Below are positions 2,241 through 6,936 of a DNA stretch of 64,000 bases, one piece after another. The position numbers and the translations under genes are program-made. Below the pieces are notes generated by a model that was not told the origin of the DNA, did no database searches, and worked only from the letters and a program-made list of their open reading frames with translations. This DNA comes from Nocardia tengchongensis (GTDB taxonomy: Bacteria > Actinomycetota > Actinomycetes > Mycobacteriales > Mycobacteriaceae): the NCBI RefSeq assembly GCF_018362975.1, contig NZ_CP074371.1, positions 7,254,001 to 7,318,000 on the forward strand, given 5' to 3'. Position 1 is the first letter of the stretch. Each line of letters starts with the position of its first letter.

Positions 2241-4197
2241 CTAGCCGCGCGACAACGGGAACCGCCACGCCCGGATCCGCCGATCCGACAACACGACCAG
2301 GGCCCCGCAGGACAACAGCTGATCCAGCCGCGGCAGCGCCTGCCGGAGCGCCACGACCTGGTCGTCGGCCGTGGCCTCGGCGTGGTGCAGAACCACCACG
2401 CTGGGCGCGGACGAGGCGGCGGCCAGGTCGTCGGCGTAGGTGCGCTCGGCGGTCACCAGGGCGCGGCCCAGCGACTTGGCCTGCTCCAGCACCCGGCGAT
2501 TGTCGCCGTTCCGCAAGCCCACGTCGCGCAGGTGCACGACGTCATAGCCCGCGGCTTCCAGCTTTTCGGCGATCCGGGGGCTCAGGTTCTCGTCGACCAG
2601 CAGCTTCGCGCCCACCACCGTCGGCGAAAGTCCTTGCACCGCTTCCGCATAGGTCATGTCGAGCGCCTCGGTGCCGGTCAATCGGCTGATGATGGTGCTC
2701 GGCTCGGTGATCGCCGAATCGCCGGTCATCCGCTTGCGCGCACCGGCCACCGCCATCCCGGCCGCGGCGGTCCCGGCGGCCGCGGTCCCGGCCAGACCCG
2801 CCCTCCTGCCCAGCCCGGAGATTCCCGCATGAGCGTCGGCCACCGTGCCCCCGGCCTGCGGCGCGACACCGGTCATGCCCGTCGCCTTCAGACTCGCAGC
2901 GGCGCCTTTCATATCCAGGGTGGGACTCTGCTCCATGACGGGACTCTGCGCGCCCACGACGGGAGCCTTCACAGTGGGGCCCCGGACGTCGGTACCGACG
3001 CCGGAGTGACCCGACCCGCCACGCCCGCCGCCGCGCAGCTTGTTCCACGCCCACCACAGCAGGCCGAGCAGGCCGATCAGCGCGGCCGCGATGGCCAGCA
3101 GCGCGAGCAGCCACCACCAACCCAGCTTGTCCTTGAACTTCGCGAACCAGCCCTGGGACTTCTCGACGCTCGGCGCGGACAGGCTCGGCAGTTTGAACGA
3201 ACCGTCGGGCAGTTTCACCGCGCCGCTGGGGAAGGTGATCGAGCCGTCGGACATTCTCACCGTGCCGTCGGGCAACTGCACCGCGCCCTCGGGCAGCTTG
3301 AACGCCCCGTCCGGCAGCCGGATCAGGCCGTTCGCGTACTGCAGCGAACCGTCCGGGAGCCGAACCGCGCCCTCCGGCAAGCTGATCGACCCGTCCGGCG
3401 GTTTGATCGAACCGTCCGGCAGCACGTATATTGCCATTCGGCAATTGGAAGCTACCGTCTGGCAATTTGATGGAACCGTCCGGGAACTGGACATTTCCGT
3501 CGGGCAATTGCACGGATCCCTCGGGGAGCGCGGCGTTCATTCCAGGGAAGGACAGACCGGCCAGTCCCGCGGCCAAACCGCCGGGCACCGTGCCGAATCC
3601 GTGCTGCGGGTTCCAGGAGATCTCCGCGGCGCCATTGTCGCCGCTGAACTTCTGCCGGATGGTGCCGTCGGGGTCGGTGACCGCGGTGGCGGCCGGGAGG
3701 CCGAGTTCGGTCGCGGGACCGCCGAGCTTGCGATAGGCCGCCAGCATCGGACCGCGCACCACCCACGCGTCCCGGGGCACCCAGTAGATCGAGGCGCCGT
3801 CGGGCGCGGAGAAGTCGTTGAAACGCCCGGTGTCGCCGGGTGTCACCGCCTCGTCGGTGGTGGGAAATCCGAGGCCGCTCGTGGGTCCGCCGAGCTGTTC
3901 GTAGTCCGCCAGAATGTCGCCGTAGAGCACGTGCGCGCCGGTCGGCGGGGAGTAGTAGATGGCACCGCCGTCGTAATCGCGGACCGCGCCGTCCGCCACC
4001 GGACGGGCGTCACCCTTCGGGCGGCCCAGCGGGGACGAGGCGCCGCCCCACTGGTCGTATTTCTGGGCGATCTCCTCCGCTCCGGTCACCTGGGCCTGCG
4101 CCGGGGAAATCAGCAGGGCCGCACCGAGGCCCGCGGAATACCCGAACACCACCATCCGCCGCAATCCGATCGGACTGAAAAGACTGACGTTTCGCAC
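2241..4197 (-). pseudogene. Frameshifted LGFP / PDG-repeat / TM / PIN-like fusion
   Basis: One gene in two frames, about 651 residues if repaired. From the GTG at 4197 (AAGGGG six bases upstream; ATG at 4242 is an alternative) come a signal peptide (1 to about 35, ending SPAQA), LGFP-type repeats (about 48-170) as in actinobacterial wall-binding proteins, then sixteen heptads of the form LPDGSxx from residue 224. The frame changes within 3427-3432. The second frame continues the heptads in phase, then has a lipid-spanning segment (WWWLLALLAIAAAL region), a Gly/Arg-rich linker, and a C-terminal domain with LVDENLSPR, HLRDVGLRN, ALVTAER and GALVVLSD, the pattern of DUF5615/Mut7-C-like PIN-fold proteins. 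Predicted topology: repeats outside, PIN-like domain inside. No DUF433-type antitoxin is adjacent. The domains are clear; the combined function is unknown. Confidence 0.75.
3192..3528 (-). repeat. Sixteen PDG heptad repeats (21-bp period)
   Basis: The coding strand repeats a 21-base unit specifying LPDGSxx, with variants LPEGAVQ, FPDGSIK, PPDGSIS, YANGLIR, MSDGSIT and FPSGAVK. The span is 337 bases, sixteen units of 21 plus one extra base, and that base marks the frameshift. The period and hydrophobic first position suggest a beta-solenoid-like stalk between the LGFP region and the membrane helix (inference). Confidence 0.85.
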
Positions 4198-5021: not shown

Positions 5022-5663
5022 CTAGGTCACCGAGTCCAGTGAGGAGAAGACGACCACGTTCGACAGGTAGCTCTTGGCGTTCTTGTCGAAGTCACCGCCG
5101 CAGGTGACCACCTGCAGGGTCGCGCCGCCCCGCGGACCGAAGACGGTCTGGTCGGGGAACTCCGATTTCAGGTACATCCGCACATCGGTGACCTTGAAGT
5201 GCGCGACCTTTCCGTCCGCCCGGGTCACGTCGATCATGTCGTCCTTCTTGACCTTCTTGAGCGTGAAGAACACGCCCGGGCCCTTGTAGGAGTCGACGTG
5301 GCCGAGAATGACCGCCGAGCCCTGCTCGCCCGGCGCCGGACCCTGCTGGTACCAGCCGGCCTGCTGGTAGTCGGCGGGCACCTGGACCGAGCCATCGGCA
5401 TTGAGCCCCACCGAGATCAGCGATCCGGCCACATTGATCGAGGGGATCGAGAACGACATCGGAGTGGAGCGGGTGATCGACGCCGCCGTCTTCACCGCGA
5501 GCGTGGTCGGCGCGACCTTGGTGCTCGACGGCGCGTCCGTGCCGCCGGAGGAACCGCAGCCCGACACCAGGGCCGCGGTGACCGCCAGTACCGCGGCCAG
5601 GGCGGCCAGCGGTCTGCGGCGAGTCGCCTTCGCGTTCATCGTGTTTCGGGTTCCGGTGCTCAT
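5022..5663 (-). CDS. Class F sortase, lipoprotein-type
   Basis: A 213-residue exported protein with a basic N-terminus, hydrophobic segment and lipobox ending VSGC (Cys36), followed by a Ser/Thr-rich linker. The sortase domain has the catalytic His in ILGHVDS (His122) and Cys in QVVTCGG (Cys188). Class F sortases sit outside the membrane and join sorting-motif proteins to the cell surface. The SYLSNVVVF segment has no Arg where class F enzymes usually have one, and no Arg follows Cys188. Its ATG overlaps the stop of the glycine-rich repeat gene by four bases, so the pair is translationally coupled and that protein is the likely substrate or partner. Confidence 0.85.
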   Translation of the reverse strand: MSTGTRNTMNAKATRRRPLAALAAVLAVTAALVSGCGSSGGTDAPSSTKVAPTTLAVKTAASITRSTPMSFSIPSINVAGSLISVGLNADGSVQVPADYQQAGWYQQGPAPGEQGSAVILGHVDSYKGPGVFFTLKKVKKDDMIDVTRADGKVAHFKVTDVRMYLKSEFPDQTVFGPRGGATLQVVTCGGDFDKNAKSYLSNVVVFSSLDSVT

Positions 5664-6739
5664 CGGGCGCTCACCGCGCCGGCCATGCCGCCCGCACCCG
5701 TCTCGGGTGCGCCCTTGGGGATCTTGTAGCCGCCGGCCGGAACCGCGTCGGTGACCGCGGTGCCGCCGCCGATGCCGGTGGACGCGCCGACCGGAATCGC
5801 CATGCCGTTCACGACATCCGCGCCGGCGGCCGCGCCACCGGAGACGGTCAGGTCGACGCCACCCAGGCCACCGCCCTGCGCGTCACCACCGATGTTCGTA
5901 TTGCCGCCGACCTGCACACCGCCGTTCGCGTTGCCGCCGGTCTGCACACCGCCACCGACCTGCACACCGCCATTGGCGTTGCCGCCGGTCTGGACGCCGC
6001 CACCGATCTGCACGCCGCCATTGGCGTTGCCACCGGTCTGCACACCGCCGCCGACGTCCAGGCCGCCACCGGCATTGCCGCCGATCTGCGTGTTACCGCC
6101 GATCTGCAGACCACCATTGGCGTCGCCGCCCGTCTGCACACCGCCACCGACGTCCAGGCCACCACCGGCATTGCCGCCGGCCTGCGTGTTACCGCCTACC
6201 TGCACACCACCATTGGCGTTCCCACCTGCTTGCGTATTGCCGCCGACATCCAGGCCACCACCGGCATTACCGCCGGCCTGCGTATTGCCGCCCACCTGCA
6301 CACCACCATTGGCGTTCCCACCTGCTTGCGTATTGCCGCCGACATCCAGGCCACCACCGGCATTACCGCCGGCCTGCGTATTGCCGCCTACCTGCACACC
6401 ACCATTGGCATTTCCACCGGCCTGCGTATTGCCGCCCACCTGCACACCACCATTGGCGTTCCCGCCGGCCTGCGTGTTACCGCCTACCTGCACACCACCA
6501 TTGGCATTTCCACCGGCCTGCGTATTGCCGCCGGCCTGCACACCGCCATTGGCGTTTCCGCCCGCGTGGGCGCCGGTCTGCACGTCGACCCCGAGTCCGC
6601 CCGGACCGACATTGACGTCGACACCGAGGCCGAGGCCCGGAGCGGGCGCGGTCGTGGTGGGGTCAGCGCTGGCTGACGGCGCACAGAGTGCGACTGCCGC
6701 GGCGATGACCACAGCAACCGGGAATGTCCTTGCCGACAT
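5660..6739 (-). CDS. Secreted glycine-rich 16-residue-repeat protein, putative sortase substrate
   Basis: A 359-residue exported protein. The signal peptide runs to about residue 26 (PSASA). Residues 62-285 are fourteen 16-residue units of the type NANGGVQVGGNTQAGG, alternating with NAGGGLDVGG variants, so the mature protein is low complexity and probably extended. The C-terminus carries APETG at 344-348 followed by eleven small residues ending in Arg, resembling an LPxTG-like signal without the normal membrane segment. The ATG at 6739 gives a clean signal peptide. The gene overlaps the class F sortase by ATGA. A surface structural role is inferred. Confidence 0.8.
   Translation of the reverse strand: MSARTFPVAVVIAAAVALCAPSASADPTTTAPAPGLGLGVDVNVGPGGLGVDVQTGAHAGGNANGGVQAGGNTQAGGNANGGVQVGGNTQAGGNANGGVQVGGNTQAGGNANGGVQVGGNTQAGGNAGGGLDVGGNTQAGGNANGGVQVGGNTQAGGNAGGGLDVGGNTQAGGNANGGVQVGGNTQAGGNAGGGLDVGGGVQTGGDANGGLQIGGNTQIGGNAGGGLDVGGGVQTGGNANGGVQIGGGVQTGGNANGGVQVGGGVQTGGNANGGVQVGGNTNIGGDAQGGGLGGVDLTVSGGAAAGADVVNGMAIPVGASTGIGGGTAVTDAVPAGGYKIPKGAPETGAGGMAGAVSAR
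5885..6556 (-). repeat. 48-bp tandem repeat array, 14 units
   Basis: Fourteen in-frame 48-base units encode the 16-residue repeats of the glycine-rich protein. Blocks near 6230-6400 are almost identical at DNA level, so copy number could change by recombination or slippage without altering frame. Confidence 0.9.
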
Positions 6740-6936
6740 TTTGTATTCGCTTCCAGACGTCGTTATCGATTGCCTTGCCGTCGAATACCGCAAGCCCGGC
6801 GTTACCGACTGGTCGGCCTGAAAGCTGAGAACTAGCGACAATTAGGGGCGGTGAAGACTGGACGTTCGCGTAACCCCCTAACGGTGAGCACCGCAAACAC
6901 TCGGGATCCCCTAATACCCTGTGGGATTGCTGCGAA

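Follow-up and report, generated by a model that had tools for sequence, protein, structure and literature searches.

A Nocardia gene joining LGFP repeats, a heptad stalk and a predicted membrane helix to a DUF5615 domain with replaced aspartates

The window, that is, the whole 64,000-nucleotide stretch of DNA analyzed here (Nocardia tengchongensis contig NZ_CP074371.1, positions 7,254,001 to 7,318,000), comes from a genome of 8.0 Mb in a single contig, and N. jejuensis belongs to the same genus. Positions 2241 to 4197 of its minus strand encode a signal-peptide-like start followed in turn by three LGFP repeats, 16 PDG-type heptads, a membrane helix, a linker and a DUF5615 domain. The 35-residue N terminus (4093 to 4197) has a hydropathy peak of 1.61 at residues 15 to 33 and ends in AQA, a cleavage motif recognized by eye. 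The LGFP repeats (3553 to 4086, limits approximate) match PF08310 in three stretches with a score of 115.7 bits (cut-off, 22; E = 1.2e-33), and the same part matches the Corynebacterium glutamicum PS1 structures 6swz (E = 4.1e-28) and 6sx4 (E = 4.5e-26). Heptads of the LPDGxxx type, with exact PDG in nine of the 16 when counted by eye, fall into a set of five in a first frame (heptads 1 to 5, 3427 to 3528) and a set of 11 in a second (heptads 6 to 16, 3192 to 3422), the latter with similar heptads in Antrihabitans. The single strong transmembrane helix (3048 to 3119; mean hydropathy of 2.66 over 19 residues) is followed by a linker, first Gly/Arg-rich and then Ala/Gly-rich (2694 to 3047), which probably lies in the cytosol, as judged from the positive residues directly C-terminal to the helix. 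Ahead of the DUF5615 domain is a segment of the form G-T/A-[DE]...YA[ED] (2640 to 2693); in alignments it is specific to the family described below, matches from other loci beginning after its start. The DUF5615 domain itself (2286 to 2606), in which acidic residues are replaced, scores 64.4 bits against PF18480 (cut-off, 23.8; E = 1e-17). The initial annotation had read this same series of parts, from signal peptide through sixteen PDG heptads and Gly/Arg-rich linker to C-terminal DUF5615, and each was borne out by profile search, hydropathy or inspection by eye. Also on the minus strand of the window, a GGNTQAGGNANGGVQV-type repeat protein (5660 to 6841), which gave no Pfam match at E ≤ 1, adjoins a sortase-domain gene (5022 to 5663; PF04203, E = 1.3e-21).

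As it stands, the window gene is broken, since heptads 1 to 5 and 6 to 16 sit in different frames, with third-position GC switching around 3433. The two frames overlap and the switch lies near 3425, within a region between heptads 5 and 6 (3420 to 3433); third-position GC is highest for one frame in blocks down to 3433 and for the other from block 3522 to 3343 on. The frames were searched separately and never joined. Of the 651-residue protein proposed in the initial annotation, the domain order therefore stands and the single reading frame does not, that version being a reconstruction. With one genome per species in the collection, the break may be a sequencing error or a real mutation, and the function of the window copy itself depends on it.

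The domain order in the window is more than chance, since it recurs in a single open frame in Antrihabitans cavernicola C1-24. This frame, of 1,079 codons from stop to stop and 1,070 from ATG, encodes a signal peptide, LGFP repeats (two stretches above the Pfam cut-off), PDG-type heptads, a membrane helix, a long linker and DUF5615 (55.5 bits), and shares with the window 55% identity in the LGFP part and 45% in the C-terminal domain. A two-row model of its N-terminal half was poor overall (mean pLDDT, 42.5) and was used for the membrane helix only, which spans residues 374 to 400 with block means of 57, 81 and 73. The layout is thus real, and a fusion across the membrane exists outside the window genome. 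The Antrihabitans linker (L115:3247-6456) carries repeated Gly/Ala-rich blocks of the KKGALGGAAAAGVAGAAGLGAK type.

Together with its own preceding segment, the C-terminal domain recurs in three other genomes, those of A. cavernicola (G248), N. jejuensis NBRC 103114 (G024) and a further member of the genus (G067). The N. jejuensis LGFP-helix-linker frame, without a heptad stalk by eye, continues past the terminus of contig 7, and the frame of its C-terminal domain is open from base 1 of contig 8, which suggests that this is probably one fused gene cut by assembly at the contig break; sequence joining the two contigs was not seen. In G067, an LGFP-membrane gene, a small Gly-zipper gene and a C-domain gene lie on one strand with gaps of approximately 30 and 70 bases; the separate C-domain protein (396 amino acids) starts with a signal-like stretch, followed by a membrane helix and a C-terminal domain just below the DUF5615 cut-off (23.4 versus 23.8 bits). 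In the window, Antrihabitans and G067 frames, the domain comes after a membrane helix. The LGFP and DUF5615 parts, for which the initial annotation had allowed that they might always be separate genes, are therefore separate neighboring genes in G067 and one frame in Antrihabitans.

A search of the genus gave a clear match over the family segment in three of 150 genomes (window, N. jejuensis and G067); a weak match over the segment in G007 (E = 5e-4) ran through a stop codon, the domain there being a stand-alone DUF5615 frame. The segment was reached in the window, N. jejuensis and Antrihabitans genomes in a draw of 401 genomes of the family, in the latter two in a second such draw, and in Antrihabitans only in a draw of 394 genomes of the class. 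As the family and class draws sampled evenly from larger groups (G067, found in the genus search, was absent from the first family draw), more members may exist. Scanning genome contigs with alignment A2 returned 12 loci, and a scan with a single protein returned 92 pattern stretches, none of which was confirmed. PDG-type matches in other genomes were examined at 13 loci, of which only L007 and L014 reached eight motifs; by eye these had neither LGFP nor DUF5615 and were treated as low-complexity matches. No match was found by protein search of a plasmid collection (E ≤ 0.001), and the open-licence PMC papers searched included none naming DUF5615 or LGFP with a PIN domain, and no title on an LGFP-DUF5615 layout among those listed.

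At four acidic positions of the domain, the members were compared with 63 other DUF5615 rows, which are the distinct matches to the A3 profile at E ≤ 1e-6 from the fetched loci and not a survey; duplicates, contained rows and six partial rows missing a counted column (one with Y at the third position) were left out. Aspartate occupies the four positions in 63, 63, 56 and 59 of these rows, and all four are aspartate in 52. The corresponding residues are D, N, E and T in the window, D, N, E and S in N. jejuensis and Antrihabitans, and D, a gap, D and G in G067. Hence the first aspartate is kept in all four members and the second and fourth in none, with glutamate at the third position in three members and aspartate in G067. 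The window domain is without an intact acidic site, three of the four conserved aspartates being replaced. Alignments also revealed a Y-x-D-D-L motif near the lost positions in all four members, which leaves room for the acids to have shifted and for catalysis to be retained.

For the window C-terminal domain, the AlphaFold2 model is confident (pLDDT, 86; pTM, 0.83) but gave weak matches on fold comparison, with no PIN-domain entry among the 50 of 948 Foldseek matches and the 50 of 775 second-look rows listed; the domain may nevertheless have a PIN fold. Sequence-profile matches to the PDB (IcmE repeats and weak rows) were judged to be chance. Against MUT7-C (PF01927; cut-off, 23.3 bits), the window domain scores 14.8 bits, below the cut-off, and the N. 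jejuensis domain passes with 24.8. For MUT7-C, PMC11347159 describes a solved structure and assays, from which RNA binding was proposed as the ancestral role, and its authors propose only distant kinship with PIN domains. None of five proteins scanned against NCBIfam came near a cut-off, and four proteins gave no match in PADLOC (E ≤ 0.01).

DUF5615 occurs once in the window genome. No DUF433 match (PF04255, E ≤ 0.001) was found beside the window gene, in agreement with the initial annotation's remark that an adjacent antitoxin was missing, or anywhere in that genome; the same search gives matches in three of 14 control genomes. DUF433 was likewise not found in the N. jejuensis or Antrihabitans genomes; the G067 genome carries two such genes, on contigs other than that of its C-terminal domain. 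By eye, DUF433-like frames lie upstream in nine of 10 canonical DUF5615 loci (L117 to L126, the exception being L124). That the TYAEA segment might be left over from a DUF433 end was a thought formed by eye only, and it was not adopted. In PMC3834315, Synechocystis vapBC10 is described as a functional toxin-antitoxin pair of PIN and COG2442.

Related LGFP-membrane proteins were fetched from the genus at 29 loci (L086 to L114), these being the ones with a locus among 36 non-own matches. A small Gly-zipper membrane protein (MEWLLGLLGG...) adjoins the LGFP-membrane gene in all 29 (e.g., L087:2716-2979), upstream in some loci and downstream in others, and the two look like a conserved pair. The L087 Gly-zipper protein, the one scanned, had no Pfam or NCBIfam match; the window genome yielded no Gly-zipper gene, and that of Antrihabitans no separate one. 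At six of the 29 loci (L087, L090, L091, L110, L111 and L114), the LGFP-membrane protein carries the motif YENNA[VIL]GA[NGD]Q[RQ]S in its tail, close to the C terminus.

In a tree of 40 DUF5615 rows, comprising the four members and the 36 of the 63 other rows that have at least 110 residues, the four C-terminal domains form one clade with support of 100/99. The LGFP tree, built from 31 parts, joins the window to Antrihabitans with support of 93/84, below the starred level; N. jejuensis falls among short-tailed LGFP-membrane proteins, and G067 in another group. One C-domain lineage is thus tied to LGFP parts from three places in the LGFP tree, by shuffling or repeated loss, and we read this as favoring a link in function. 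Both trees give the window a long branch (0.94 for the C-terminal domain and 0.93 for LGFP), and decay, given the frame break, also fits.

Our preferred reading, to which we give an even chance, sees the protein as an adaptor that is anchored in the wall and spans the membrane, with a nuclease-like domain that does not cut but binds RNA or protein. According to PMC12113857, C. glutamicum proteins have LGFP domains that interact with the peptidoglycan layer, and from this and the similarity to PS1 the LGFP repeats would, by analogy, hold the cell wall. The heptad stalk would bridge wall to membrane, the single helix would cross the membrane, and the flexible linker would present a cytosolic DUF5615-derived domain; with most conserved aspartates lost, this domain could serve as a binding module for protein or, as proposed for MUT7-C, for RNA, making the whole protein a putative tether between wall and cytosol. 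The stalk, the helix and the positive residues after it place the domain probably in the cytosol; the topology is not certain because, by eye, the linker is moderately hydrophobic in its Ala/Gly-rich part. Counting against the adaptor are the family size of only four members, the shared Y-x-D-D-L motif, a third position that stays acidic (glutamate in three members, aspartate in G067), a MUT7-C kinship that rests on weak Pfam scores, and the case of G067, with a C-terminal domain under the DUF5615 cut-off and two DUF433 genes in its genome.

The window copy could instead be a pseudogene in decay within a family that otherwise works, which would leave the adaptor reading intact for its relatives. 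The frame break points this way, as do an end branch that is the longest in the LGFP tree (0.93; median, 0.069) and a C-domain branch of 0.94, where the other two fused copies have 0.23 and 0.40; on the other hand, third-position GC is strong on either side of the break, both frames are used without a stop codon up to it, and a sequencing error would look identical. We regard decay as rather unlikely. The initial annotation proposed a putative RNase tethered to the membrane, cutting RNA when the wall-binding part senses a change in the envelope. In favor of an active RNase are a DUF5615 match above the Pfam cut-off, the first aspartate in all four members, glutamate at the third position in three, Y-x-D-D-L in all four, and a PIN-COG2442 (DUF433) pair that works as a toxin-antitoxin system in Synechocystis (PMC3834315). 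This reading is weakened because the second and fourth aspartates, kept in 63/63 and 59/63 of the other rows, are gone in 4/4 members; with DUF433 also not found in three of the four genomes, an active enzyme seems improbable.

A purely structural wall anchor, in which the C-terminal domain is a neutral remnant merely capping the cytosolic tail, would suit the 29 related loci of the genus, where the tails displayed are short and no DUF5615 frame was found, with the exceptions of N. jejuensis, whose frame exits the contig, and G067, whose domain is in a neighboring gene. A neutral remnant does not predict, however, that one C-domain clade with its own segment should be fused or adjacent to LGFP parts from three places in the tree, and it is disfavored for this reason; we hold it to be a shade more doubtful than an active RNase. 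Carrying the adaptor reading further, the wall-gripping stalk might position or switch a cytosolic RNA-binding pseudo-nuclease, so that the state of the envelope would govern what becomes of particular RNAs at the membrane, or where they are placed; this coupling is the least probable of the readings.

The recurring layout joins a putative wall-binding ectodomain to a domain of toxin type that is probably inside the cell. This domain has lost most conserved aspartates, and three of the four genomes have no detectable DUF433 partner for it. Should it bind RNA, there would be a direct physical link from the envelope to RNA in the cytosol; if it is an adaptor only, it would clearly exemplify the reuse of a toxin-type domain for binding. 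The intact copy in a named species, A. cavernicola, makes the layout testable.

Several known systems share parts of this layout. DUF433-DUF5615 toxin-antitoxin pairs (PIN-COG2442, such as Synechocystis vapBC10, likened via DUF433) have in common with the window a DUF5615 above the cut-off; they differ in that the window protein is membrane-fused rather than small and helix-free, has its aspartates replaced and was found without DUF433. MUT7-C (PF01927) has weak Pfam similarity and an alpha/beta domain in common, and an RNA-binding role is proposed for it in PMC11347159, but it has a zinc finger, whereas the window domain has one Cys by eye and scores under the cut-off. The Nocardia LGFP-membrane proteins share signal peptide, LGFP repeats and one membrane helix with the window protein, and DUF5615 is present only in N. 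jejuensis, probably as a fusion, and in G067, as a third gene. With PS1 (6swz and 6sx4), the window protein has in common LGFP repeats on an exported protein; PS1 is a mycolyltransferase, whereas the repeats in the window belong to a membrane protein that has a stalk, crosses once and probably carries a further domain on the far side.
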